DNA of 64,000 bases from Sipunculus nudus (lineage: Eukaryota; Annelida; Sipuncula; Golfingiida; Sipunculidae). Numbering within the stretch: the stretch's first letter is position 1; each line of letters starts with the position of its first letter. The notes under the pieces are model-generated. The model searched no databases, had not been told where the DNA came from, and saw only the letters and a program-made list of their open reading frames with translations. The translations under genes and the position numbers were made by a program. Positions 42,904 to 64,000 of this stretch are shown one piece after another. The stretch lies in contig CM049309.1 in NCBI GenBank assembly GCA_026874595.1, positions 678,501 through 742,500 of the forward strand. The letters run 5' to 3'.

Positions 42904-43156
42904 ATGGCATCCCTTGTGAGAAGCTTTCGGCACCTCCCACTTTTAAAACCACGAAAGTTTGGTGCTGCGGTGACGTCAAACTTCAGCACAGACCCAAAGC
43001 AGCCCAGCACACTGGTAGGTTTTGATGAAATAAAAAGTTTCATCGAAAGATGTATGGTTGCTGTCGGAACAACTCCGAGCCATGCTGCCGCCCTTGCCGA
43101 CAATCTCCGAGCAGCCGACTACAGGGGACACTTCAGTCACGGTCTGAACAGGCTAG
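42904..43156 (+). CDS. Ldh_2-family gene, exon 1
   Basis: ATG in AAAATGG context. It encodes the leader, [20 protein letters not shown] and [16 protein letters not shown], and ends CTAG|GTGAGA in phase 1. The open frame continues 13 codons into the intron before a stop, which would be the fate of an unspliced message. Confidence 0.93.
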
Positions 43157-46100
43157 GTGAGATAGTGACCATGTTAGCAAGTAACTTTAATTGTTGAAAA
43201 CTGTTGCCTTTTCTTTATTCTCTCTGTTAAGCATAGATTCAAAATTCTTAAAAGTAAAAAAAAAAGAAGTTTTTTTTTTACAGTTTTTTCATGTTTTTTG
43301 CCATTTTGTTTACAATTATTTTTAATTCTAGTCTCATTTATAGGCTTAATTTTATCTAATCAGTATAACGACAATTAGACAAAAAACAGTAGGAACAGAC
43401 AACCCTCTCAATTCATTTATGAAAAAAAAAAAATGCAATTATGTTTGCTCTTCATTTTAGGATTTTTAATATGCTGTTTTAAATTAAATGTAATAATGAT
43501 TAAATCATTTACTGTAAACTACTGAAATAAATTTTTGTGGGTTTTTTTACTTGTTGATGTTGTATTCAGGCTTAGAGTAATCTGGAAATTTATATAATAT
43601 TTAAAAAATAATAATAATAATATATGTATATATATATATGTCACAAACATAAAATTGTTTCAATTAACCTTCGGCTCAGTCTGGATCAAATTGACAATTT
43701 GAGCTGGATTTATTTTTCAGACATGTATGTAGCAGACTTCAAAACTGTATCAACAATTTGAGCTGGATTTATTTTTCAGACATGTATGTAGCAGACTTCA
43801 AAACTGTATCAACAATTTGAGCTGGATTTATTTTTCAGACATGTATGTAGCAGACTTCAAAACTGTATCAACAATTTGAGCTGGATTTATTTTTCAGACA
43901 TGTATGTAGCAGACTTCAAAACTGTATCAACAATTTGAGCTGGATTTATTTTTCAGACATGTATGTAGCAGACTTCAAAACTGTATCAACAATTTGAGCT
44001 GGATTTATTTTTCAGACATGTATGTAGCAGACTTCAAAACTGTATCAACAATTTGAGCTTGATTTATTTTTCAGACATGTATGTAGCAGACATCAAAACT
44101 GTATCAACAATTTGAGCTGGATTTATTTTTCAGACATGTATGTAGCAGACTTCAAAACTGTATCAACAATTTGAGCTGGATTTATTTTTCAGACATGTAT
44201 GTAGCAGACTTCAAAACTGTATCAACAATTTGAGCTTGATTTATTTTTCAGACATGTATGTAGCAGACTTCAAAACTGTATCAACAATTTGAGCTTGATT
44301 TATTTTTCAGACATGTATGTAGCAGACATCAAAACTGTATCAACAATTTGAGCTGGATTTATTTTTCAGACATGTATGTAGCAGACTTCAAAACTGTATC
44401 AACAATTTGAGCTGGATTTATTTTTCAGACATGTATGTAGCAGACATCAAAACTGTATCAACAATTTGAGCTGGATTTATTTTTCAGACATGTATGTAGC
44501 AGACTTCAAAACTGTATCAACAATTTGAGCTGGATTTATTTTTCAGACATGTATGTAGCAGACATCAAAACTGTATCAACAATTTGAGCTGGATTTATTT
44601 TTCAGACATGTATGTAGCAGACTTCAAAACTGTATCAACAATTTGAGCTGGATTTATTTTTCAGACATGTATGTAGCAGACATCAAAACTGTATCAACAA
44701 TTTGAGCTGGATTTATTTTTCAGACATGTATGTAGCAGACTTCAAAACTGTATCAACAATTTGAGCTGGATTTATTTTTCAGACGTGTATGTAGCAGACA
44801 TCAAAACTGTATCAACAATTTGAGCTGGATTTATTTTTCAGACATGTATGTAGCAGACTTCAAAACTGTATCAACAATTTGAGCTGGATTTATTTTTCAG
44901 ACATGTATGTAGCAGACTTCAAAACTGTATCAACAATTTGAGCTGGATTTATTTTTCAGACATGTATGTAGCAGACATCAAAACTGTATCAACAATTTGA
45001 GCTGGATTTATTTTTCAGACATGTATGTAGCAGACATCAAAACTGTATCAACAATTTGAGCTGGATTTATTTTTCAGACATGTATGTAGCAGACTTCAAA
45101 ACTGTATCAACAATTTGAGCTGGATTTATTTTTCAGACATGTATGTAGCAGACTTCAAAACTGTATCAACAATTTGAGCTGGATTTATTTTTCAGACATG
45201 TATGTAGCAGACTTCAAAACTGTATCAACAATTTGAGCTGGATTTATTTTTCAGACATGTATGTAGCAGACTTCAAAACTGTATCAACAATTTGAGCTGG
45301 ATTTATTTTTCAGACATGTATGTAGCAGACTTCAAAACTGTATCAACAATTTGAGCTGGATTTATTTTTCAGACATGTATGTAGCAGACTTCAAAACTGT
45401 ATCAACAATTTGAGCTGGATTTATTTTTCAGACATGTATGTAGCAGACTTCAAAACTGTATCAACAATTTGAGCTGGATTTATTTTTCAGACATGTATGT
45501 AGCAGACTTCAAAACTGTATCAACAATTTGAGCTGGATTTATTTTTCAGACATGTATGTAGCAGACTTCAAAACTGTATCAACAATTTGAGCTGGATTTA
45601 TTTTTCAGACATGTATGTAGCAGACTTCAAAACTGTATCAACAATTTGAGCTGGATTTATTTTTCAGACATGTATGTAGCAGACTTCAAAACTGTATCAA
45701 CAATTTGAGCTGGATTTATTTTTCAGACATGTATGTAGCAGACTTCAAAACTGTATCAACAATTTGAGCTGGATTTATTTTTCAGACATGTATGTAGCAG
45801 ACTTCAAAACTGTATCAACAATTTGAGCTGGATTTATTTTTCAGACATGTATGTAGCAGACTTCAAAACTGTATCAACAATTTGAGCTGGATTTATTTTT
45901 CAGACATGTATGTAGCAGACTTCAAAACTGTATCAACAATTTGAGCTGGATTTATTTTTCAGACATGTATGTAGCAGACTTCAAAACTGTATCAACAATT
46001 TGAGCTGGATTTATTTTTCAGACATGTATGTAGCAGACTTCAAAACTGTATCAACAATTTGAGCTGGATTTATTTTTCAGACATGTATGTAGCAGACTTC

Positions 46101-49100
46101 AAAACTGTATCAACAATTTGAGCTGGATTTATTTTTCAGACATGTATGTAGCAGACTTCAAAACTGTATCAACAATTTGAGCTGGATTTATTTTTCAGAC
46201 ATGTATGTAGCAGACTTCAAAACTGTATCAACAATTTGAGCTGGATTTATTTTTCAGACATGTATGTAGCAGACTTCAAAACTGTATCAACAATTTGAGC
46301 TGGATTTATTTTTCAGACATGTATGTAGCAGACTTCAAAACTGTATCAACAATTTGAGCTGGATTTATTTTTCAGACATGTATGTAGCAGACTTCAAAAC
46401 TGTATCAACAATTTGAGCTGGATTTATTTTTCAGACATGTATGTAGCAGACTTCAAAACTGTATCAACAATTTGAGCTGGATTTATTTTTCAGACATGTA
46501 TGTAGCAGACTTCAAAACTGTATCAACAATTTGAGCTGGATTTATTTTTCAGACATGTATGTAGCAGACTTCAAAACTGTATCAACAATTTGAGCTGGAT
46601 TTATTTTTCAGACATGTATGTAGCAGACTTCAAAACTGTATCAACAATTTGAGCTGGATTTATTTTTCAGACATGTATGTAGCAGACTTCAAAACTGTAT
46701 CAACAATTTGAGCTGGATTTATTTTTCAGACATGTATGTAGCAGACTTCAAAACTGTATCAACAATTTGAGCTGGATTTATTTTTCAGACATGTATGTAG
46801 CAGACTTCAAAACTGTATCAACAATTTGAGCTGGATTTATTTTTCAGACATGTATGTAGCAGACTACAAAACTGTATCAACAATTTGAGCTTGATTTATT
46901 TTTCAGACATGTATGTAGCAGACTTCAAAACTGTATCAACAATTTGAGCTGGATTTATTTTTCAGACATGTATGTAGCAGACTTCAAAACTGTATCAACA
47001 ATTTGAGCTTGATTTATTTTTCAGACATGTATGTAGCAGACTACAAAACTGTATCAACAATTTGAGCTTGATTTATTTTTCAGACATGTATGTAGCAGAC
47101 TTCAAAACTGTATCAACAATTTGAGCTTGATTTATTTTTCAAACATGTATGTAGCAGACTTCAAAACTGTATCAACAATTTGAGCTTGATTTATTTTTCA
47201 AACATGTATGTAGCAGACTTCAAAACTGTATCAACAATTTGAGCTTGATTTATTTTTCAAACATGTATGTAGCAGACTTCAAAACTGTATCAACAATTTG
47301 AGCTTGATTTATTTTCCAGACATGTATGTAGCAGACTTCAAAACTGTATCAACAATTTGAGCTTGATTTATTTTTCAAACATGTATGTAGCAGACTTCAA
47401 AACTGTATCAACAATTTGAGCTTGATTTATTTTCCAGACATGTATGTAGCAGACTTCAAAACTGTATCAACAATTTGAGCTTGATTTATTTTCCAGACAT
47501 GTATGTAGCAGACTTCAAAACTGTATCAACAATTTGAGCTGGATTTATTTTTCAGACATGTATGTAGCAGACTTCAAAACTGTATCTACAATTTGAGCTG
47601 GATTTATTTTCCAGACATGTATGTAGCAGACTTCAAAACTGTATCAACAATTTGAGCTTGATTTATTTTCCAGACATGTATGTAGCAGACTTCAAAACTG
47701 TATCAACAATTTGAGCTGGATTTATTTTTCAGACATGTATGTAGCAGACTTCAAAACTGTATCAACAATTTGAGCTTGATTTATTTTTCAGACATGTATG
47801 TAGCAGACTTCAAAACTGTATCAACAATTTGAGCTTGATTTATTTTCCAGACATGTATGTAGCAGACTTCAAAACTGTATCAACAATTTGAGCTGGATTT
47901 ATTTTTCAGACATGTATGTAGCAGAGGTAATTTTTTTCAAACATGTAGGTGGCAGACATTGTATCAACAATTTGAGCTGGATTTATTTTTCAGACATGTA
48001 TGTAGCAGACTTCAAAACTGTATCAACCATTTGAGCTGGATTTATTTTTCAGACATGTATGTAGCAGACTTCAAAACTGTATCAACAATTTGAGCTTGAT
48101 TTATTTTCCAGACATGTATGTAGCAGACTTCAAAACTGTATCAACAATTTGAGCTGGATTTATTTTTCAGACATGTATGTAGCAGAGGTAATTTTTTTCA
48201 AACATGTAGGTGGCAGACATTGTATCAACAATTTGAGCTGGATTTATTTTTCAGACATGTATGTAGCAGACTTCAAAACTGTATCAACAATTTGAGCTTG
48301 ATTTATTTTTCAGACATGTATGTAGCAGACTTCAAAACTGTATCAACAATTTGAGCTTGATTTATTTTCCAGACATGTATGTAGCAGACTTCAAAACTGT
48401 ATCAACAATTTGAGCTGGATTTATTTTTCAGACATGTATGTAGCAGAGGTAATTGTTTTCAAACATGTAGGTGGCAGACATTGTATCAACAATTTGAGCT
48501 GGATTTATTTTTCAGACATGTATGTAGCAGACTTCAAAACTGTATCAACCATTTGAGCTGGATTTATTTTTCAGACATGTATGTAGCAGACTTCAAAACT
48601 GTATCAACAATTTGAGCTGGATTTATTTTTCAGACATGTATGTAGCAGACATTGTATCATTAATTTGAGCTTGATTTATTTTCCAGACATGTATGTAGCA
48701 GACATTGTATCAACAATTTGAGCTGGATTTATTTTTCAGACATGTATGTAGCAGACTTCAAAACTGTATCAACAATTTGAGCTGGATTTATTTTCCAGAC
48801 ATGTATGTAGCAGACTTCAAAACTGTATCAACAATTTGAGCTGGATTTATTTTTCAGACATGTATGTAGCAGACTTCAAAACTGTATCAACAATTTGAGC
48901 TGGATTTATTTTTCAGACATGTATGTAGCAGACTTCAAAACTGTATCAACAATTTGAGCTGGATTTATTTTTCAGACATGTATGTAGCAGACTTCAAAAC
49001 TGTATCAACAATTTGAGCTGGATTTATTTTTCAGACATGTATGTAGCAGACTTCAAAACTGTATCAACAATTTGAGCTTGATTTATTTTTCAGACATGTA

Positions 49101-52100
49101 TGTAGCAGACTTCAAAACTGTATCAACAATTTGAGCTGGATTTATTTTTCAGACATGTATGTAGCAGACTTCAAAACTGTATCAACAATTTGAGCTTGAT
49201 TTATTTTTCAGACATGTATGTAGCAGACTTCAAAACTGTATCAACAATTTGAGCTGGATTTATTTTTCAGACATGTATGTAGCAGACTTCAAAACTGTAT
49301 CAACAATTTGAGCTGGATTTATTTTTCAGACATGTATGTAGCAGACTTCAAAACTGTATCAACAATTTGAGCTTGATTTATTTTTCAGACATGTATGTAG
49401 CAGACTTCAAAACTGTATCAACAATTTGAGCTGGATTTATTTTTCAGACATGTATGTAGCAGACTTCAAAACTGTATCAACCATTTGAGCTTGATTTATT
49501 TTTCAGACATGTATGTAGCAGACTTCAAAACTGTATCAACCATTTGAGCTTGATTTATTTTTCAGACATGTATGTAGCAGACTTCAAAACTGTATCAACC
49601 ATTTGAGCTGGATTTATTTTTCAGACATGTATGTAGCAGACTTCAAAACTGTATCAACAATTTGACCTATATTTATTTTTCAAACATGTATGTAGCAGAG
49701 GTAATTTTTTTCAAACATGTAGGTGGCAGACATTGTATCATCAATTTGAGCTTGATTTATTTTTCAGACATGTATGTAGCAGACTACAAAACTGTATCAA
49801 CAATTTGAACTGGATTAATTTTTTATAGACATGTATGTAGCAGACTTCAAAACTGTATCAACAATTTGAGCTGGATTTATTTTTCAGACGTATGTAGCAG
49901 ACGTAATTTTTTTTAGACATATATGTAGCAGACATTGTATCAACAATTTGAGCTGGATTTATTTTTCAGACATGTATGTAGCAGACATAAAAAAAAACTG
50001 TATTAACAGTCTGAGCTGGATTTATTTTTCAGCCATGTATGTAGCAGACATCAAAACTGTATCAACAATTTGAGCTGGATTTATTTTTCAGACATGTATG
50101 TAGCAGACTACAAAACTGTATCAACAATTTGAGCTGGATTTATTTTTCAGACATGTATGTAGCAGACATAAAAAAAACTGTATTAACAGTCTGAGCTGGA
50201 TTTATTTTTCAGCCATGTATGTAGCAGACATCAAAACTGTATCAACAATTTGAGCTGGATTTATTTTTCAGACATGTATGTAGCAGACTACAAAACTGTA
50301 TCAACAATTTGAACTGGATTTATTTTTTTCAGACGTGTGTATCAGACATCAAAACTGTATCAACAATTTGAGCTGGATTTATTTTTCAGTCATGTATGTA
50401 GCAGACGTAATTTTTTTCAGACATGTATGTAGCAGACATTGTATCAACAGTTTGAGCTGGATTTATTTTTTTCAGACATGTATGTAGCAGACATCAAAAC
50501 TGTATCAACAATTTGAGCTGGATTTATTTTTTCAGACTTGTATGTATCAGACATCAAAACTGTATCAACAGTTTGAGCTGGATTTATTTTTTCAGACATG
50601 TATGTATCAGACATAATTTTTTTCAGACATGTATGTATCAGACATTAAAAGTGGGATCACAGCAAAAGATGGTGAGCCTGAGGTGATACATGAGACTTCC
50701 GCCACAGCCTGTATTGATGGGCGTAACCTGCTGGGTCCAGTAGTAGGCAACAAGGCCATGCAGATGGCAATACAGAAGGCTCAAGAAACAGGGGTCGGAT
50801 GGACTGTAGCTAAGGGTAGGTCCTCCCTCTACCCATCCTTGAAAAGTTTATGATCTGATATTCAGAAAAAGTTTTAGTAAATTGATGGATGAATTTGATT
50901 GCCACCTCCATTTTATGCAGATCCTTTTCTCTTGTGAATGAGTACAAAGTCTTCAGTTATTTTGTGAATGAGTATGTCCTCACTCCTCAGTTATTTTGTG
51001 AATTAGTACCTCCACTTATTTTGTGAGTGAGTACAACATCCTCAGTTATTTTTTGAACAAGTACGTCCTCAGTTATTTTGTGAGTACAACTTCTGCAGTT
51101 ATTTTGTGAACGAGTATATCCTCAGTTATTTTGTGAACGAGTACATCCTCAGTTATTTTGTGAACAAGTACGTCCTCAGTAATTTTGTGAGTACGTCTGC
51201 AGTTATTTTGTGAACAAGTATGTCCTCAGTTATTTTGTGAACAAGCATGTCCTCAGTTATTTTGTGAACGAGCATATCCTGTTATTTTGTGAACAAGCAT
51301 GTCCTCAGTTATTTTGTGAACGAGCATGTCCTCAGTTATTGTGTGAACAAGTACGTCCTCGATTATTTTGTGAGTACAATGTCTGCAGTTATTTTGTGAA
51401 TGAGTATGTCCTCAGTTATTTTATGAACAAGCATGTCCTCAGTTATTTTGTGAACGAGCATATCCTGTTATTTTGTGAACAAGCATGTCCTCAGTTATTT
51501 TGTGAACGAGCATGTCCTCAGTTATTGTGTGAACAAGTACGTCCTCGATTATTTTGTGAGTACAATGTCTGCAGTTATTTTGTGAATGAGTATGTCCTCA
51601 GTTATTTTATGAACGAGCATGTGTTCAGTTATTTTGTGAACGAGCATGTGTTCAGTTATTTTGTGAACAAGCATGTCCTCAGTTATTTTGTGAACAAGCA
51701 TGTCCTCAGTTATTTTGTGAACAATCATGTCCTCAGTTATTTTGTGAACGAGCATGTCCTCAGTTATTTTGTGAACGATCATTTCCTCAGTTATTTTGTG
51801 AACGAGTATGTCCTCAGTTATTTTGTGAACGAGCATGTCCTCAGTTATTTTGTGAATGAGCATGTCCTCAGTTATTTTGTGAACGATCATTTCCTCAGTT
51901 ATTTTGTGAACGAATATGTCCTCAGTTATTTTGTGAACGAGTATGTCCTCAGTTATTTTGTGAACGAGCATGTCCTCAGTTATTTTGTGAACGATCATTT
52001 CCTCAGTTATTTTGTGAACAAGTATGTCCTCAGTTATTTTGTGAACGAGTATGTCCTCAGTTATTTTGTTAACGAGCGTGTCCTCAGTTATTTTGTGAAC

Positions 52101-55100
52101 GATCATGTCCTCAGTTATTTTGTGAATGAGCATGTCCTCAGTTATTTTGTGAAACATCATGTCCTCAGTTATTTTGTGAACGAGCATGTCCTCAGTTATT
52201 TTGTGAACGATCATTTCCTCTGTTATTTTGTGAACGAGTATGTCCTCAGTTATTTTGTGAACGAGCATGTCCTCTGTTATTTTGTGAACGATCATTTCCT
52301 CTGTTATTTTGTGAACGAGTATGTCCTCAGTTATTTTGTGAACGAGCGTGTCCTCAGTTATTTTGTGAATGAGCATGTCCTCAGTTATTTTGTGAACGAG
52401 CATGTCCTCAGTTATTTTGTGAACGAGCATGTCCTCAGTTATTTTGTGAATGAGCATGTCCTCAGTTATTTTGTGAACGAACATGTCCTTAGTTATTTTG
52501 TGAATGAGCATGTCCTCAGTTATTTTGTGAATGAGCAAGTTCTCAGTTATTTTGTGAACGAGCATGTTCTCAGTTGTTTTGTGAACGAGCATGTTCTCAG
52601 TTATTTTGTGAACGAGTAGTCCTCAGCTATTTTGTGAACAAGCATGTCCTCAGTTATTTTGTGAACGAGCATGTCCTCAGTTATTTTGTGAACGAGTATG
52701 TCCTCAGTCATTTTGTGAACGAGTATGTCCTCAGCTAAGTATGTCCTAAGTTATTTTGTGAACAAGTATGTCCTAAGTTATTTTGCGAATGAGTATGTCC
52801 TCAGTTTTTTTTTTGAACGAGTTATTTTGTGAACTGGTGCTCTTGCTTTAATCCCTTCAAAGTATTCATGAATGTGTCATGGAAAATGGACTGAACTTAG
52901 TGTTGTTTCTAGCCACCATTTAAAGAAATGAAGCACTAGGGCTAAAGTTTTGTGTTGTTTCTTCTCACCATTTACAGAACTATAAGTCATCAGAGCTCTA
53001 GTTATGATCCATTGTCTAATGTCCACCTAGTCGTTAGACTGGCACATTTTTAAACTGTTAGATGTACAGATCCAAAATTAGACATACAATTGTGGAAATA
53101 TGCCATTTTTAAAGAATTCAATTTTCTTTAAAATATTTTTAACAAATTAATGATTGAAATAATTTCATCAATTCAATGATTCAAAATGTAATTATATCCA
53201 GCAGGTTGCGCTACCTACCAAAAAAATCCAGAAAGCCGTCCAAGTTGTATACATATGCAAAATTTAAGGCAGATAAGTCAAACCACTACATGTATATGAG
53301 TGATTTTTGCCCTTGGCAGACAAACAGATGGACGCTGTGCAAAAAAGGGTTTCAGGTGGTGCCACCAGTTTAGAGTATGATAAAGAGCTATGTGAGAACT
53401 ATACACATGCAAAACTTTGCCCCAATCGGTCAAACGGTTCCCAAGATATGAGCTTGGATATCTGCTGCATAAACTAGAATGCAGGTGGCGCCACCTGTCA
53501 TAAAATCAAGAGAGCTGTCGGGGATGTATAAACTTGCCAAATTTTAGGCAGATATGTCAAACCACTGCCGAGATATGAGTGATTTTATCCCATGGCAGAC
53601 AAACAGACGGGAGCTGTGCAAACATGGCTGCAGGTGGCGCCACCAGTTTTGCGTATGATGAAGAGCTATGTGAGATTTATACACATGCAAAATTTTGGCC
53701 CAATCAGTCAAACGGTTCCCTAGATATGAGCTTGGATGTCTGCAGCATAAACTTGATTGTAGGTGGCGCCACCTGTCATAAAATCAGAAAAGCTATCCAG
53801 GATGTATAAGCATGCCGAATTTCAGGTGAATTAGTCAAACCACTGCAGAGATATGAGTGATTTTAACCCAAGGCAGACGAACAGATGGACACTGTGCAAA
53901 CATGGTTGCAGATGGCGCCACCATTTTTTGTGTATGTTATAAAGCTCTCCAAGGGCTACATTTGTGCAAAAAAATTTTCCTGATCGGTCAAACGGTTCCT
54001 GAGATATGAGCTTGGATGTCTGCAGCGTAAACATGAATGAAGGTGGCGCCACCTGTCATAAAATCAGAAAAGCTATCCAGGATGTATACGCATGCCAAAT
54101 TTCAGGTGAATTAGTCAAGTCACTGCAGAGATATGAGTGATTTTAACCAAAGGCAGACAAACAGATGGACACTGTGCAAACATGGTTGCAGGTAGCGCCA
54201 CCATTTTTGGTGTATGTTATAAAGCTCTCCAAGGGCTTCATTTGTGCAAAAGAATTTTCCTGATCGGTCAAACGGTTCCCGAGATATGAGCTTGGATGTC
54301 TGCAGCGTAAACGTGAATGTAGGTGGCGCCACCTGTCATAAAATCAGAAAAGCTATCCAGGATGTATACCCATGCCAAATTTCAGGTGAATTAGTCAAGT
54401 CACTGCAGAGATATGAGTGATTTTAACCCAAGGCAGACGAACAGATGGACACTGTGCAAACATGGTTGCAGGTGGCGCCACCATTTTTGGTGTATGTTAT
54501 AAAGCTCTCCGAGGGCTACATTTGTGCAAAAGAATTTTCCTGATCGGTCAAACGGTACCTGAGATATGAGCTTGGATGTCTGCAGCGTAAACGTGAATGT
54601 AGGTGGCGCCACCTGTCATAAAATCAGAAAAGCTATCCAGGATGTTTACGCATGCGGAATTTCAGGTGAATTAGTCAAGTCACTGCAGAGATATGAGTGA
54701 TTTTAACCCAAGGCAGACGAACAGATGGACACTGTGCAAACATGGTTGTAGGTGGCGCCACCATTTTTGGTGTATGTTATAAAGCTCTCCGAGGGCTACA
54801 TTTGTGCAAAAAAATTTTCCTGATCGGTCAAACGGTTCCCGAGATATGTGGGTTTATGTGTGGAAACAGACACACAAACGGACGCAGAGCGCAGAGGAAA
54901 GGTCAGAGGTCAAAACAAAATCGGGGCGCAGCAGTTCACATGTGACCCGAACATAATCCCAGGTTTCGGAAAATTCCGCCCAGCGGTTACGGAGGAGTTC
55001 TCCGGACACTTATGCGGCGGCGGCGGCGGCGGCGTGCAGCTGAAAACATAGTATCCGCAAAACTCTGTTTTGGCGAATACAATTAAGTGATCAGCTTTAT

Positions 55101-57708
55101 TTGTCCATCTATATATTTTTAAACATTTAACAATTATGAATCATTTTTTTCTGCAGGCACTGTTGAATGAAATATAATATCCTTTATATATATGCAAAGG
55201 TGTTTTAACTCCCGCTGTTCTTTACCTCATCAATTACAACTGAGCACCCTGACCTATTGGTCCTTTGTTTTGTTGTTTTTATGCACAATTTAAAGATCTG
55301 AAGCACTATGGACTTGATTTGTGTGTTGTTCAATGCATCATTTAAAGAACTGATGCAAATTCTCTTCCCAGAACATTTCTACTTACTTTTTCTTGACTAG
55401 TAATTAATTTTTGTGTGGGGTTTAAATTATATATAAATATAAAATGTAGGATATTTGTCCATGTGTTGACTATATGAATCAGAGTAGGAGCAGGAAATAT
55501 ATCCAATAATTAAGTAACGTGACAGTAAGGTAACTGGAAATTAGTGTTCAGATCAATGGGGTCTACTTTTCATTTTTGCAATAATGATAAATATATATAA
55601 ATATATAAAAAATGACTGTTGCCAGTCTCCCATCAAACAACTCCAATTTAAAATTTTGGATTTGGTGTTTGGGGAAAAAAAACAACTATTATTTGTCACT
55701 TCATATCCATCTTTTGTAGGTTCCAACCATTATGGCATTGCAGGGTGGTATGCAATGCAAGCCTTGGAAAAAGGAATAATGGTAACATAAAACCTCAATA
55801 CAATTTTGCATTTTAATAACCCTTGACTCTAACTTCTCACTTATGTGATTGTATATAATTATATTTTGTTGAATATTGAGAAAGATTTTTCTAAAATGAA
55901 TATTTTTATTTCAATTCAAGGATTGTATTTTGGATTAGCAGTGATAGCAATATTATTGAGTTTCAGTGTGTCTTTCTGTTAAAGGTTTTATTTATATAAA
56001 CACTTAAAAAGTATACTAATGACTTTTTGACTGCAGAATGTTTTGCATAGCTTATCTGTGGATAAAGTATGTATAATATTTAATTTTATCCTTTAAAGTT
56101 TATTAATTTTATTTACTTTCAGGGTATGTCTTTCACAAACACCTCACCACTTCAGGTACCAACACGAGCCAGACAGGTAAGTAAAAATGGAAAAAAAAGT
56201 CACTCAAGCACACATACATTGAGAGAATGAAAAAGAGTGAGAGATTTAGAGCAAGGGAGAGAGAGAGATTTGTATCAGGTTACAGATTCTTTATGGGTTC
56301 AGAGTTATTACATGATGCAGTCTAAGCAGAAAGCACCAAGAATTTTGTTAATATACAGCTACGTTTCCCATGATATTTTGGAAATGGGTTAAAATCGTAA
56401 TGTTTTTGGCAACAATACTTGACATGTTGATTGGAGGTGTGGACCAGACACCCAATTGAGCCTGGACCTGTCTGGTTCACAATTTTGGTTGGACCAGACC
56501 AGACTGCTAACACAAAATATCAGATCACTTTCGAAACTGGTTTGGACCACCCCATCTTAATTAATTTAATTGCTTGTGTTATAGATGAATTTGTTTCATT
56601 TCTTAAGGTTCAACCAACAATCATACCCTTATTATGGACAATGTGTTTGTTAAGCAACAATAGGACTAGACCACTCTGATGATGGACTGGAACAACAGGA
56701 GATGGTGTGATCTCGTCTGCACCTCTAATGTTGATAAGAGGTTCTGGTCTGAAACTGATTGGCTGAGAACTGATGGTTGCCTGAAATAAAGTTGATACCA
56801 CAGGGGCTGTCATAAACTGATATAAGTTAGAATACTCTGGTTGGCTTTATGCATGTTGGGGATTCTACTTCACAATATCTACAGAATTATGAATAAACAT
56901 GAATAAGATGTCCAATCAACACAGGTGAAAACTACTTTATACAATGGCCTCACTAGCATCTCATTCTTAATTCATGTATGTAGCCTTTACAGTCAAATAT
57001 ACAGTATATCAAAGATAGTGTTACAAATAACATAAAATACACCTTCCTCGTTATTTCTTAAACATACTTTGGAGATATTCTGACAAATGGGCAAACATGG
57101 TTGAACATATACCCTCAGCCACATTGTGTGACACACAGGTAGCTATGGGTGAACACATAATCTCAGCCATATTGTATGACAGACAAACAACATGGGTGAA
57201 CACATAACCTCAGCCATATTATGTGACAAACAGACAGACACGTGTGAACACATAACCTCAGCCATATTGTGTTGCAGACAGAAAAAAAACGTAGCGACAC
57301 ATAATGTCAGCCAGCTTGACTGACAGCTTGCAAGATACCTCAAGCACTGTCTCTTGCTTTGCAGGCAACCTTAGGAACTAACCCAATTGCTGTGGCAGCA
57401 CCAGGTAAAGAGGGAGACAGTTTTGTTCTTGACATGGCTACCTCTACCTGTGCCCTTGGAAAGGTGAGATGATATAACAATGTTTACATAGTGTAACTAA
57501 GTGCAACTTTACACTTACATGGTTGTAAGGTATATACATTCAAACTAACATGTAATGAAATACACCACTGCAGAATGTTTTAGTGAACTTTTGATGGGGA
57601 AAAGGTAAAAAGAGTCATCAGGAGTAAGTTAATGTAGGCTCAAAAAATTCACAGGTCCAAACACAGAGTAACAACTTACTTCTTTTCATTAGTGAGATGA
57701 GAATTGTA

Positions 57709-57758
<50 letters not shown>

Positions 57759-60700
57759 TTATCTACACATTATCACTGTAGGTTGAGCTACATAATGTCA
57801 AGGGTATTCCTATACCTAGAGGCTGGGGAGCAGACTCAAAGGGCAGGGTAAGTAAAAAAATTACTATTATATTTTTTGCCCCAGAAAATACACTGGACTG
57901 ACATTTTGTGGGCAGGTAATGCAAACTTTATGTGTGATGAACTCTCTTGTGGAGACTTTCATGCAAGCATGAGATTTTCAGTGCTACTTGGCTTGCTGTG
58001 TGTTTTCTGTGTTGCATTCCGCTGGTAAAAATACAACTAATAAAATATTAGCCATGCTCCATATCCATGCATGCGATTTGCAGCACAGCAAAAACATGCA
58101 TAAGTTTTGGAATCCAGCAGTCCTAGATTTGTGAGGCAACGGCATGGGAATTCTGCCTAAATGACCTACCATATTTTGTTTCACCACCTGATTTATGAGG
58201 CATCGTCATGGGAGTTCTGCCTAAATGACCTACCATATTTTGTTTCACCACCTGATTTATGAGGCATCGTCATGGGAATTCTGCCTAAATGACCTACCAT
58301 ATTTTGTTTCACCACCTGATTTATGAGGCATCGTCATGGGAATTCTGCCTAAATGACCTACCATATTTTGTTTTACCACCTGATTTATGAGGCATTGTCA
58401 TGGGAGTTCTGCCTAAATGACCTACCATATTTTGTTTCACCACCTGATTTATGAAGCATCGGCATGGGAATTCTGCCTAAATGACCTACCATATTTTGTT
58501 TCACCACCTGATTTATGAGGCATCGGCATGGGAATTCTGCCTAAATGACCTACCATATTTTGTTTCACCACCTGATTTATGAGGCATCGTCATGGGAATT
58601 CTGCCTAAATGACCTACAATATTTTGTTTCACCACCTGATTTATGAGGCATCGTCATGGGAATTCTGCCTAAATGACCTACCATATTTTGTTTCACCACC
58701 TGATTTATGAGGCATCGTCATGGGAATTCTGCCTAAATGACCTACCATATTTTGTTTCACCACCTGATTTATGAGGCATAGTCATGGGAATTCTGCCTAA
58801 ATGACCTACCATATTTTGTTTCACCACCTGATTTATGAGGCATCGTCATGGGAATTCTGCTTAAATGACCTACCATATTTTGTTTCACCACCTGATTTAT
58901 GAGGTATCGTCATGGGAATTCTGCCTAAATGACCTACCATATTTTGTTTCACCACCTGATTTATGAGGCATCGTCATGGGAATTCTGCCTAAATGACCTA
59001 CCATATTTTGTTTCACCACCTGATTTATGAGGCATCGTCATGGGAATTCTGCCTAAATGACCTACCATATTTTGTTTCACCACCTGATTTATGAGGCATC
59101 GTCATGGGAATTCTGCCTTAATGACCTACCATATTTTGTTTCACCACCTGATTTATGAGGCATCGTCATGGGAATTCTGCCTAAATGACCTACCATATTT
59201 TGTTTCACCACCTGATTTATGAGGCATCGTCATGGGAATTCTGCCTAAATGACCTACCATATTTTGTTTCACCACCTGATTTATGAGGCATCGTCATGGG
59301 AATTCTGCCTAAATGACCTACCATATTTTGTTTCACCACCTGATTTATGAGGCATCTTCATGGGAATTCTGCCAAAATGACCTGCCATATTTTGTTTCAC
59401 CACCTGATTTATGAGGCATCGTCATGGGAATTCTGCCTAAATGACCTACCATATTTTGTTTCACCACCTGATTTATGAGGCATCGTCATGGGAATTCTGC
59501 CTAAATGACCTACCATATTTTGTTTCACCACCTGATTTATGAGGCATCGTCATGGGAATTCTGCCTAAATGACCTACCATATTTTGTTTCACCACCTGAT
59601 TTATGAGGCATCGTCATGGGAATTCTGCCTAAATGACTTACCATATTTTGTATCACCACCTGAATTATGAGGCATTGTCATGGGAATTCTGCCTAAATGA
59701 CTTACCATATTTTGTATCACCACCTGAATTATGAGGCATCGTCATGGGAATTCTGCTTAAATGACCTACCATATTTTGTATCACCTCCTGAATTATGAGG
59801 CATCGTCATGGGAATTCTGCCTAAATGACCTACCATATTTTGTTTCACCACCTGAATTATGAGGCATCGTCATGGGAATTCTGCTTAAATGACCTACCAT
59901 ATTTTGTTTCACCACCTGATTTATGAGGCATCGTCATGGGAATTCTGCCTGAATGATCACCATATTTTGTATCACCACCTGATTTATGAGGCATCGTCAT
60001 GGGAATTCTGCCTAAATGACCTACCATATTTTGTATCACCACCTGATTTATGTGGCATCGTCATGGGAATTCTACCTAAATGACCTACCATATTTTGTTT
60101 CACCACCTGATTTATGAGGCATCGTCATGGGAATTCTGCCTCAATGACCTACCATATTTTGTATCACCACCTGATTTATGAGGCATCGTCATGGGAATTC
60201 AGCCTAAATGACCTACCATATTTTGTTTCACCACCTGATTTATGAGGCATCGTCATGGGAATTCAGCCTAAATGACCTACCATATTTTGTTTCACCACCT
60301 GATTTATGAGGCATTGTCATGGGAATTCTGCCTAAATGACCTACCATATTTTGTATCACCACCTGATTTATGAGGCATCGTCATGGGAATTCTGCCTAAA
60401 TGACCTACCATATTTTGTTTCACCACCTGATTTATGAGGCATCGTCATGGGAATTCTGCCTAAATGACCTACCATATTTTGTTTCACCACCTGATTTATG
60501 AGGCATCGTCATGGGAATTCTGCCTAAATGACCTACCATATTTTGTTTCACCACCTGATTTATGAGGCATCGTCATGGGAATTCAGCCTAAATGACCTAC
60601 CATATTTTGTTTCACCACCTGATTTATGAGGCATCGTCATGGGAATTCTGCCTAAATGACCTACCATATTTTGTTTCACCACCTGATTTATGAGGCATCG

Positions 60701-63700
60701 TCATGGGAATTCAGCCTAAATGACCTACCATATTTTGTTTCACCACCTGATTTATGAGGCATCGTCATGGGAATTCTGCCTAAATGACCTACCATATTTT
60801 GTTTCACCACCTGATTTATGAGGCATCGTCATGGGAATTCTGCCTAAATGACCTACCATATTATGTTTCACCACCTGATTTATGAGGCATCGTCATGGGA
60901 ATTCTGCCTAAATGACCTACCATATTTTGTTTCACCACCTGATTTATGAGGCATCTTCATGGGAGTTCTGCCTAAATGACCTACCATATTTTGTTTCACC
61001 ACCTGATTTATGAGGCATCGTCATGGGAGTTCTGCCTAAATGACCTACCATATTTTGTTTCACCACCTGATTTATGAGGCATCGTCATGGGAGTTCTGCC
61101 TAAATGACCTACCATATTTTGTTTCACCACCTGATTTATGAGGCATCGTCATGGGAGTTCTGCCTAAATGACCTACCATATTTTGTTTCACCACCTGATT
61201 TATGAGGCATCGTCATGGGAGTTCTGCCTAAATGACCTACCATATTTTGTTTCACCACCTGATTTATGAGGCATCCTCATGGGAGTTCTGCCTAAATGAC
61301 TTACCATATTTTGTTTCACCACCTGATTTATGAGGCATCGTCATGGGAGTTCTGCCTAAATGACCTACAATATTTTGTTTCACCACCTGATTTATGAGGC
61401 ATCGTCATGGGAATTCTGCCTAAATGACCTACCATATTTTGTTTCACCACCTGATTTATGAGGCATCCTCATGGGAATTCTGCCTTAATGACCTACCATA
61501 ATTTGTTTCACCACCTGATTTATGAGGCATCGTCATGGGAATTCTGCCTAAATGACCTTCCATATTTTGTTTCACCAACTGTAATTGTCAGGAAAGTTTG
61601 CATTTCCCACGTGGCACACACATACAAAATGCTTGCATGGGAAAAGAATGACCACACAGGACTTGCATGCATTTGCTGTATGGCAGATATTGTACTCATG
61701 AAAAGTAATATTAACAATGATATCCTCAGACTGAGAGGTTGTGGATCCTATGGTGTTTGCACTGTGACTGCCATAATCAAATCTTGTACACATGATAACT
61801 ATAAAAATTGTTCACTGATCTCTTTCAAATTTTACATGTGCATAGATATTTTAATTGTTAGTACTACATACCTTGTAAGCAGCATTTAGATATAAGTAAT
61901 GACTATAGGAACATTTTTAAAAGCAATATTACAAGTGTAACATTTCCCTAAACAGAGGATTTCTTTGCAGGAAACCTTTGACCCAAAGGAGATGTTAGAT
62001 GGTGGTGGGCTGCTCCCATTGGGTGGATCTGAACAAAGTAGTAAGTCATGTGGCCTTGAACTGTTTGGAGTGCTCTGGGACTTATAAAAGTAGAGTATAA
62101 ATAAGGGCCATTTAGGGGGTCCTCTGTTTGAGATTTGTATTATAATGTAAGCAGTTGCTTGCTGCTGCTAATGCAAAGTTACTCTTCAAGTTATATATGA
62201 ATTCATTGCAATGAATATAATAATAAGTGTGTAATGAAGTGGTCACAGTCAGGCAAACATATTAGCGCAGAGAAGGTGCCTAGCAGGTAATGACATGGCT
62301 GCCTGCTGGGTTTCCAGCGGTGTTTGAGATCATGTTAAATCTGAAAAATTAGCTTACCTTTTTCAGCCAGGGAAAGGCTTGCCATTGTAGAAAAATGGTC
62401 AAAATCAGGGGAATGGCAAGGAATTTGATTGGCTAAAAGAGAAAATGTTCAGTCTATAATATTGTAACATGTACCTCATGCAAAAATAGCATATCCACTC
62501 AAAGATATGTACAGTACATAATAAGGATTCGGACATGTACAGTAAATAATAGTGATTTAGATATGTACAGTACAATAGTGATTTCGATTTGTACAGTACG
62601 TAATAGTGATTTAGTTTCTCCCTGCAACCACTCTGTACAGCAGCAACATGTCCAACAGGAAATGGCTGATATGATTATCTTTGAAATATGAAAAATTGGG
62701 GGTAAAACTCGGGAAGCTTAATTGTTATATGTGCTGGGAATCGTGTGTAAGTGTAAAGCAGTATAAAAATATAAAAAAATAACAGAAAGATTTTGTAATA
62801 CCATCAAGTAATTGATACCAAATTACTGTATGACTGCCATGACACACCATGTGACACTCCAGTGAGTTTTATGCATATGTTTTGTCTAATTCTCACTAGG
62901 TGGCTACAAGGGTTATGGCCTTGCGATGTTAGTCGAGGTGTTATGCGGAATACTCTCTGGAGCTGAATGGGGACCAAACATCCGAGTATGGCGCAACACT
63001 GACAGGGTCGCTAATCTTGTTAGTATTTTATGTCATTTCACAATTTTTAGATATTATAGTATACACAATGCTAGGAGACCTGTTGGGTCAACATATGAAG
63101 GAAAATGTTTCTAAAATAAAAATATTGAAATGAATAATATGTAATTATTAAGTCTTGATTCCAGGTTTTTATGAACGAGTTTAGGAATGATGTAATTTAT
63201 AAATTGTAACTTGGATTTTCTCAGGGCCAATGCTTCATAGCCGTTGATCCGGCTGCGTTCGGTGTCGGTTTTACAGACAGGATGCAGGCCCTCATGGACA
63301 CCTGTAGGGGACTGGAGCCGGTCAGTACTAGCTTTCTACATTTATCAGCATTTTCATTTTGATACCATCATTACATGCTTAACATTACCTTCTTATTTCC
63401 TCTGCCTGTCTGGCAGTTTAAAAATTGACTGACTGTAATTGTTGTAAATAGTTCTTGAACTGTTTCATGTGATTTTGTAATTTGATTTAGTCTCAGTTAT
63501 GATAAAAGCTCATGTGACAGAGTAAATTTATTTTCAAAGAATCATAGGTAAGCATTTTTAAATTTAGTTTATATGTCATAGTTTTTATATCATTCTCTAA
63601 AATATATTCATATAGATATATTATATAAATTTTTATATCGTCAAGACCTGAGTGCACATATAAGTTGTGATGAATGAGAGGTGACCAGCCCAGGGCTTAT

Positions 63701-63866
63701 TCCTTTACTGAAATGTTCTACAGCTCAGGAGTTAGATATGTTATTATAAAATCAGGCTGAAGGAGAGACAGAGGTGCTGGTGCCCGGTGACCCAGAGAGG
63801 AAGCACATGGCAAAGTGTGATGCACAGGGGGGAATTCAGTACCATCCCAACCAGATCAGCCAACTG
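42904..63866 (+). CDS. Malate/L-lactate dehydrogenase-like oxidoreductase (Ldh_2 family), 3' end outside window
   Basis: Ten exons joined in frame give 1119 bases (373 codons) without a stop. The first ~30 residues ([20 protein letters not shown]) are basic, without acidic residues, and look like a mitochondrial leader. Family landmarks follow in order: [20 protein letters not shown] (the SHG..RL substrate/catalytic region), [45 protein letters not shown] (conserved His), [75 protein letters not shown] and [10 protein letters not shown]. These enzymes reduce or oxidise 2-oxo/2-hydroxy acids or related substrates with NAD(P); substrate cannot be told from sequence. Only the last 10-30 residues of the usual family length should be missing. 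Introns 1, 2, 6 and 10 hold tandem arrays. Confidence 0.93.
43691..50626 (+). repeat. 59-bp satellite filling intron 1; each unit carries a 3' splice site plus the start of exon 2
   Basis: About 117 copies of a 59-base unit. One phase reads 'acatgtatgtagcagacttc', 'aaaactgtatcaacaatttg', 'agctggatttatttttcag'. The last 22 or so bases are the intron's own 3' end (TATTTTTCAG) and the first ~30 match the start of exon 2 (ACATGTATGTATCAGACATT). Units at about 45.0-46.8 kb are virtually identical; those beyond 49.6 kb, next to exon 2, are most diverged. Sub-families include alternating GACTTC/GACATC dimers at about 44.3-44.8 kb and a 261-bp higher-order repeat at 47.9-48.45 kb. It occupies about 93% of the 7.47 kb intron. 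Confidence 0.97.
50627..50815 (+). CDS. Ldh_2-family gene, exon 2
   Basis: The acceptor 'tttttttcag' (50625-50626) is the final member of the acceptor array; the preceding AG is only 31 bases upstream. The exon starts AC ATG TAT (giving GAC with exon 1) and encodes [35 protein letters not shown] and GVGWTVAK. It ends AAGG|GTAGGT, phase 1. Choosing the upstream AG would shift the frame and stop within 18 codons. Confidence 0.92.
50946..52835 (+). repeat. 27-bp tandem repeat in intron 2, about 65-70 copies
   Basis: Unit 'tcctcagttattttgtgaac' + 'gagcatg'. Irregular at the 5' edge, then regular 27-base spacing from about 51200. Because 27 is divisible by three and the unit lacks stops in two frames, it creates a 469-codon plus frame and a 347-codon minus frame with the same nine-residue repeat ([18 protein letters not shown]). 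These are artefacts. The unit carries CTCAG, a weak 3' splice-site-like motif. Confidence 0.95.
53190..54905 (+). mobile_element. Pearl/HINE-like array: ~280-bp units with GGTGGCGCCACC palindromes
   Basis: About six units of 280 bp (for example boundaries 54052, 54332, 54612). Each is made of two ~140-bp half-units with 'gagatatgag', 'ggtcaaacggttccc' and a central AGGTGGCGCCACCT palindrome, which recurs about ten times (53486, 53633, 53761, and so on). The same GGTGGCGC..CC core and the terminal 'acaaacggacgcag' link it to the cores of the 5.5 kb element. The 70-codon minus frames repeating every 280 bases are artefacts of the array. Confidence 0.75.
55013..55035 (+). repeat. (GGC)n microsatellite
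   Basis: About seven uninterrupted GGC/GCG triplets inside intron 2, in an otherwise AT-rich intron. Confidence 0.95.
55720..55781 (+). CDS. Ldh_2-family gene, exon 3
   Basis: A 'catcttttgtag' acceptor; GGT TCC AAC CAT TAT encodes [20 protein letters not shown] and ends ATAATG|GTAACA, phase 0. SNHYG carries a family-conserved histidine near the active site. Confidence 0.93.
56123..56176 (+). CDS. Ldh_2-family gene, exon 4
   Basis: A 54-bp exon, 'tttactttcag' acceptor to CAG|GTAAGT donor, phase 0-0. It encodes [18 protein letters not shown]. The family motif FTNTSPL..PTR is intact. Confidence 0.93.
57090..57310 (+). repeat. ~47-bp tandem repeat, about five copies (intron 4)
   Basis: The unit is 'gtgaacacataacctcagcc' followed by 'atattgtgtgacagacag'. 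Copies begin near 57101, 57149, 57196 and 57244. Confidence 0.8.
57365..57463 (+). CDS. Ldh_2-family gene, exon 5
   Basis: A 99-bp exon, 'gctttgcag' acceptor to AAG|GTGAGA, phase 0-0. It encodes [18 protein letters not shown] and [14 protein letters not shown], the LGTNP and LDMATS family motifs. Confidence 0.94.
57712..57751 (+). repeat. (AT)n microsatellite in intron 5
   Basis: An uninterrupted AT run ending about 30 bases before the exon 6 acceptor, in the usual branch-point/pyrimidine zone. Confidence 0.95.
57782..57847 (+). CDS. Ldh_2-family gene, exon 6
   Basis: A 66-bp exon, 'cactgtag' acceptor to AGG|GTAAGT, phase 0-0. It encodes [22 protein letters not shown], matching the P.P.GW segment of the family. 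Confidence 0.9.
58120..61580 (+). repeat. 64-bp satellite in intron 6, about 54 copies
   Basis: Unit 'caccacctgatttatgaggc', 'atcgtcatgggaattctgcc', 'taaatgacctaccatatttt', 'gttt'. Very homogeneous, with blocks of shared variants (GAGTTC at 60.96-61.4 kb; GTATCACC at 59.65-60.36 kb; AATTCAGCC at 60.2-60.7 kb). It is not visibly derived from exon 6 or 7. Short frames inside it are artefacts. Confidence 0.97.
61971..62040 (+). CDS. Ldh_2-family gene, exon 7
   Basis: A 70-bp exon, 'atttctttgcag' acceptor to AAAGTA|GTAAGT, phase 0-1. It encodes [23 protein letters not shown], the GG.LLPLGG family motif. Confidence 0.93.
62497..62620 (+). repeat. ~36-bp tandem repeat, four copies (intron 7)
   Basis: The unit contains 'atgtacagtacataatagtg' and 'atttagat', with small indels between copies. 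Confidence 0.75.
62900..63018 (+). CDS. Ldh_2-family gene, exon 8
   Basis: A 'ttctcactag' acceptor to CTT|GTTAGT (slightly non-consensus donor), phase 1-0. It encodes [25 protein letters not shown] and [11 protein letters not shown]. Confidence 0.92.
63225..63320 (+). CDS. Ldh_2-family gene, exon 9
   Basis: A 'ggattttctcag' acceptor to CCG|GTCAGT, phase 0-0. It encodes [20 protein letters not shown] and [16 protein letters not shown] is a family signature. Confidence 0.92.
63756..63866 (+). CDS. Ldh_2-family gene, exon 10 (last exon in window)
   Basis: A 'ataaaatcag' acceptor to CTG|GTGAGT, phase 0-0. It encodes [20 protein letters not shown] and [19 protein letters not shown] is a family motif. 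The C-terminal residues lie in an exon beyond 64000. Its last 29 bases are part of the 61-bp repeat that follows. Confidence 0.92.
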
Positions 63867-64000
63867 GTGAGTATCTAAACCAGGTCAGACACACTGTAAG
63901 TACCATCCCAACCAAATCAGCCAACTGGTGAGTATCTAAACCAAGTCAGACACACTGTAAGTACCATCCCAACCAGATCAGCCAACTGGTGAGTATCTAA
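63838..64000 (+). repeat. 61-bp tandem repeat spanning the exon 10 / intron 10 donor, runs off the window
   Basis: 'agtaccatcccaaccagatc' 'agccaactg|gtgagtatct' recurs with the CCATCCC block at 63842, 63903 and 63964, exactly 61 bases apart. Each unit therefore holds the final exon bases, the GTGAGT donor and 30 or so intron bases, plus a second donor-like ACT|GTAAGT. At least two decoy donors (after 63927 and 63988) follow the true one (after 63866). Array length beyond the window is unknown. Confidence 0.95.

Follow-up and report, generated by a model that had tools for sequence, protein, structure and literature searches.

Tandem arrays of splice-boundary copies in two introns of an Ldh_2 gene of Sipunculus nudus

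The DNA analysed here, referred to below as the window, is a stretch of 64,000 nucleotides (nt) from the forward strand of contig CM049309.1 of the Sipunculus nudus assembly (C4:678501-742500; genome 1.43 Gb). It carries an 11-exon gene in which two splice junctions have been copied in tandem, the acceptor of exon 2 inside intron 1 and the donor of exon 10 inside intron 10. The gene lies on the + strand and starts at 42904, with its last exon falling just beyond the window end. The gene model was built by hand from open frames and splice signals and then checked for frame. It gives a product of 384 residues without a stop, the frame staying open through all 11 exons, and all ten introns are bounded by GT and AG. 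The gene is predicted to encode a malate/lactate-dehydrogenase-type enzyme of the Ldh_2 family. Its product matches the Pfam Ldh_2 profile (PF02615) with 386.5 bits against a curated cut-off of 38.8 (E 1.3e-115, profile positions 3-332 of 333), and 13 distinct sequences of solved structures match it at E up to 0.001, the best being 1v9n, a malate dehydrogenase.

Amplified junctions in introns 1 and 10

Exon 1 (42904..43156) ends in CTAG/gtgaga, where the slash marks the junction, and exon 2 (50627..50815) begins at the acceptor TTTTTTTCAG/ACATG, which was placed by reading frame and protein alignment. The intron between them is 7470 bp long and is nearly all tandem array (43691..50626, + strand). 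Each array unit joins the 3' end of the intron and CAG to the start of exon 2. In the commonest unit about 36 nt past the junction align with exon 2 and the remaining 23 or so are intron end, so that the preliminary description of this locus was right about the array and the exon origin of part of its unit, and too short in giving that part about 30 bases. Tandem Repeats Finder (TRF) reports 113.7 copies of period 59 at 43694-50406, with lesser rows continuing to 50645. Counting copies of the exon 2 start with at most three edits gives 121 before the true acceptor, where about 117 had been estimated, and 11 looser matches at the window locus were left out. The distance to the next copy is 59 bp for 99 of the 121, 53 bp for seven, 31 bp for six and 29-63 bp for the other nine. 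The sequence context of the copies, which we call decoys, preserves AG at 112 of them, the preceding triplet being CAG in 110, TAG in two and CAA in nine. The last decoy is a 31-bp copy directly adjoining the true acceptor (50596..50626, + strand); if used, it would shift the frame and reach a stop after 17 codons.

All 20 junctions of the gene were compared with 40-nt blastn-short queries at E up to 0.01. The query over the exon 2 acceptor has 120 additional matches within the gene and that over the exon 10 donor has 26. None of the other 18 has any at this threshold, which excludes chance as the source of the similarity. Amplification thus affects a single acceptor and a single donor, each with its true site adjoining the exon.

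The donor array was not part of the preliminary description. Exon 10 (63756..63866) ends at CAACTG/gtgagt, and from 63838 its end and donor, GTGAGTATC, are repeated in 61-bp units, each consisting of two half-units of about 30 bp. As seen by TRF and in the sequence, this minisatellite occupies 63838..64000 on the + strand and runs on beyond the window to about C4:744010. The true donor lies in the first repeat, with more donors downstream, and reading through it adds VSI and then a stop. A loose scan, allowing up to five edits in 18 nt and counting half-units and the true donor, with no shuffled control, returns 56 positions, of which 30 have GT and 24 have GTRAGT. The donor array was seen at the Ldh_2 gene only.

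Descent from exon 2 and a second copy of the locus

The start of exon 2 aligns without gaps across the exon 1/2 junction in the three Ldh_2 structure alignments displayed, and its Y and G are common to all three. The exon is therefore old, and its sequence indicates that the array derives from exon 2 and not the reverse, as had been proposed. Three of the last five or so copies before the exon have the exon-type TATCAG, a base found in none of 179 units of 59 bp. The opposite direction, in which the exon 2 acceptor comes from a captured dispersed satellite and the exon start is itself repeat-derived, might be suspected in a window as rich in tandem arrays as this one (62 TRF rows). In a genome search that passes over very common words, however, the acceptor satellite was found at only two places among the matches listed (two candidate regions), both of them copies of this gene, so that the satellite without exon 2 similarity, which would have spoken against descent from the exon, was not seen among those matches. 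This distribution and the Ldh_2 alignment rule against capture, to which we give almost no weight. An animal Ldh_2 paralogue with a single-copy boundary was sought as an outgroup, and none was present among 17 matches (best 22 candidates scored). Eight of the 17 fall in the two copies of the gene and nine are uninterrupted genes on bacterial-looking contigs.

The second assembled copy of the locus, also absent from the preliminary description, is 665 kb away, with its acceptor array at C4:1387238-1394439. It has 135 decoys, 94 with AG and 41 with CAA (34 looser matches left out), and a donor array of equal size, the loose donor scan giving the same counts. The last 11 units of the acceptor array are identical between the copies and the interior is reordered, with a single unit sequence making up 101 of the 256 units of both arrays. 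Within the second copy, at C4:1391066-1393550, a 143-bp block of three copies has itself been amplified; two of its three acceptors are CAA, and there are 18 such CAA pairs.

Among the matches listed, the two regions agree along most of the roughly 90 kb compared. The match stops at 748575, immediately ahead of a 500-N gap (C4:748576-749075), and the stretches compared show nothing collinear on its far side. Because the match ends exactly at this gap, the two copies are probably haplotypes that were assembled one after the other, a true duplication being the alternative. Scaffolding is therefore imperfect here, which raises the question of an assembly artefact in the array itself or in its length. 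Against this, the array was assembled in two separately placed copies that agree at the exon-proximal end and differ in interior order, and the sole N run in the stretches examined is the gap itself, outside both arrays. We regard an artefact as very improbable.

The copies agree completely in exons 2-11 and show 4 differences in the 253 bases of exon 1. To the left of the acceptor array, at 38.5-43.5 kb of the window, substitutions between the copies reach 1.8-4.6% per 500 bp, and divergence returns to low values still further to the left, at 20-34 kb. To the right, non-array windows at 53-58 kb have at most 0.4%, with higher values in the repeats at 52-53 kb, and the intron pieces right of the array together with the 3' flank show eight differences in about 9400 bases. 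A step in divergence across the array is what past exchange inside it would leave, and may reflect such exchange; it is a single case for which other causes are possible.

Decoy sites, mirage minisatellites and the choice of acceptor

The motif TATCAAC, which is branch-site-like by general resemblance and not by calibration for this animal, lies 15-45 nt upstream of 109 of the 121 decoys. Since similarity to exon 2 runs for about 36 nt, the motif falls within the exon-alignable part of the unit. A total of 104 decoys combine TATCAAC with a T-run and AG, the branch-like A lying 26-28 nt from the junction; the earlier statement that every unit has the motif, a pyrimidine tract and CAG holds for these, with AG, and not for the rest. 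Early stops follow a similar pattern. A TGA was said to close every decoy frame after 13-14 codons, and this is so for 104 of 121 (103 at 13 codons, one at 14), while in the remaining 17 the stop, in some cases TAG or TAA, comes 2 to 51 codons on. No decoy among the 121 reads through exon 2, and only the last copy, the true acceptor, leads into an open frame, as described before.

When the 179 units of 59 bp are compared column by column, the G of AG is one of the most changed positions. It is altered in 27 units, against about two on average in the other columns, one of which reaches 25. The altered G occurs in 8 of 23 distinct 59-bp sequences. A splice-site base this variable suggests that the decoys are tolerated and not maintained.

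One alternative is that the decoys compete for exon 1 and act as an acceptor sponge or poison-splice regulator, early-stop transcripts lowering gene output with copy number. The 104 decoys with motif, T-run and AG would suit such a role, as would a stop ahead of exon 2 read-through in all 121 and the different proportion of intact acceptors in the two locus copies (112 of 121 and 94 of 135). In a stronger form the decoys would be recognised by the spliceosome and used measurably, array length would set output through early-stop transcripts, and the AG-less block of the second copy would be relief from the load. The frequent loss of AG tells against a regulator, as does the amplification in the second copy of the CAA block, its 18 pairs spaced at 143-bp steps. 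So do the only 60 of 135 second-copy decoys that have motif, T-run and AG together, and published boundary minisatellites are reported to leave splicing intact (PMC3087553, PMC3902484). We consider the regulator unlikely, and its stronger form, with measurable use and relief from load, equally doubtful.

The units have also a superficial resemblance to recursive-splicing steps, in which a junction at CAG/ACAT would be followed by use of GTATGT and the long intron removed stepwise. GTATGT follows ACAT in 114 of 121 decoys and in 109 of 135 in the second copy. In recursive sites AG is directly followed by GT; here the two are 4 nt apart, and each step would therefore leave ACAT in the mRNA. The GTATGT motif moreover belongs to the copied exon, and true exon 2 has it too. 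Stepwise removal is accordingly the sort of explanation we would hardly entertain.

The preliminary description knew of no system of this kind. Similar systems have in fact been described. In amphioxus, mirage minisatellites whose repeats span an intron-exon boundary occur in Adh3, BflGb6 and BflGb9; BflGb6 is of the acceptor type and BflGb9 of the donor type, and many, not all, units have AG or GT (PMC3087553). Amphioxus mirages show length differences between haplotypes, a homogenised interior from which the boundary units are excluded, and splicing that is reported to be undisturbed (PMC3087553). Both arrays described here likewise have a unit that spans the exon-intron boundary and includes part of the exon. 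AG is present at 112 of 121 and 94 of 135 acceptor copies and GT at 30 of 56 loosely matched donor positions, and the interior of the acceptor array is homogenised with the last 11 units left out. The 121 and 135 decoys of the two assembled copies would be a haplotype difference in length if the copies are haplotypes, as is probable, and not a true duplication; the donor array is equally large in both. The arrays differ from those of amphioxus in scale, the two BflGb6 haplotypes having 6 and 3 units, each of 150-160 bp, against 121 and 135 units here, mostly of 59 bp, and in joining acceptor and donor types in a single gene. Lancelet PGBD5 and troponin C also have boundary repeats, 60- and 108-bp tandem repeats at the 5' and 3' splice sites of one gene that are said to leave splicing undisturbed; in contrast to the present arrays they are imperfect, and the 108-bp repeat is described as having three copies (PMC3902484). 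Intron 7 of human factor VII contains 37-bp near-identical repeats, variable in number, with the true donor in the first, and the most upstream donor alone is normally used (PMC6627357). The intron 10 array has this same layout. Factor VII is a donor case only, and the oriented scanning put forward for it (PMC6627357) would not on its own explain choice of the last acceptor in intron 1. Two other papers concern other kinds of tandem repeats (PMC2812944, PMC6905558), and no boundary minisatellite in a mollusc came up within the literature covered. By their organisation the arrays belong to the known mirage kind and are extreme in scale. What is new is that scale, together with decoys having a branch-like motif that the true acceptor lacks.

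We think it quite likely that this Ldh_2 gene holds a pair of such splice-boundary minisatellites, self-expanding, tolerated and not used. Each would have originated in a tandem duplication spanning the junction, after which one copy served as the working boundary and the second became part of the intron. The array would then grow on its intron side by slippage or unequal exchange, with homogenisation, while copies next to the exon would escape turnover. Every duplicate sits between two true junctions and would therefore be removed with the intron. Exon definition would mainly select the exon-proximal site, since splicing to any decoy beyond the nearest nine of 121 would create an internal exon of more than about 690 nt; the true acceptor has 2 decoys within 150 nt, 6 within 300 nt, 9 within 500 nt and 18 within 1000 nt. 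Splicing that leaked to a decoy would meet an early stop and presumably lead to mRNA decay, so that the array would be tolerated rather than used.

Several observations weigh against a pair of tolerated mirages. By the local features examined, the true acceptor does not clearly stand out. It has no TATCAAC at the usual distance of 15-45 nt, the nearest beginning 64 nt upstream with a decoy AG between. Its pyrimidine fraction over the last 20 nt is 0.60, compared with 0.56 on average in the decoys, and its T-run is longer, with a length of 7 where the commonest unit has 5. The stretch free of AG measures 14 nt at the true site and 15 nt in most copies. A simple first-AG rule predicts use of the decoy 31 nt upstream. 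The frequency of AG loss is weak evidence on selection because few events have been multiplied by amplification. The identity of the copies to exon 2, with the array divided into tenths, does not rise toward the exon. Frequent formation of such arrays in this genome is not demonstrable, since 16 of 75 listed myosin-domain matches had no array of at least three copies within 60 nt, only one 2.0-copy repeat, and the sample is too small to give a rate. Finally, splicing at 50627 and 63866 is predicted from the gene model.

If exon 2 is spliced cleanly, local site strength alone cannot account for the choice of acceptor, which must then depend on position relative to the exon. With 121 and 135 acceptor copies and a donor array in one gene, the locus is a natural experiment on splice-site choice, and it extends boundary minisatellites well beyond the small lancelet globin arrays. 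The difference in intact acceptors between the two copies would permit allele-specific RNA counts, and the gene could help to test how cells pick the correct splice site.

Other features of the gene and the assembly

The gene model places the remaining exons on the + strand as follows: exon 3 at 55720..55781, exon 4 at 56123..56176, exon 5 at 57365..57463, exon 6 at 57782..57847, exon 7 at 61971..62040, exon 8 at 62900..63006 and exon 9 at 63225..63320. Exon 11 falls at 65804-65851 when the window numbering is continued past its end. Introns of the gene hold two more large arrays, at 51039-52734 and 58126-61581, with 27-bp and 64-bp units, in which the junction queries found no exon-junction copies. 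The preliminary description had referred to bivalves as relatives, which a muscle-myosin fragment does not confirm: it scores best against 3i5f, from squid (297.9 bits), then against Myosin-6 (295.6), and 284.6 against 1dfk and its kind, from scallop, values that do not discriminate between these groups.

The nine uninterrupted Ldh_2 genes lie on contigs C61, C62, C72, C74, C75, C77, C82, C83 and C89. Contigs C61 and C72 are 2.1-2.2 Mb long and bacterial-looking, and the contigs of this group look like symbionts or contaminants. For one of the nine genes the nearest named relative, among the named prokaryote genomes searched, has 29% identity.

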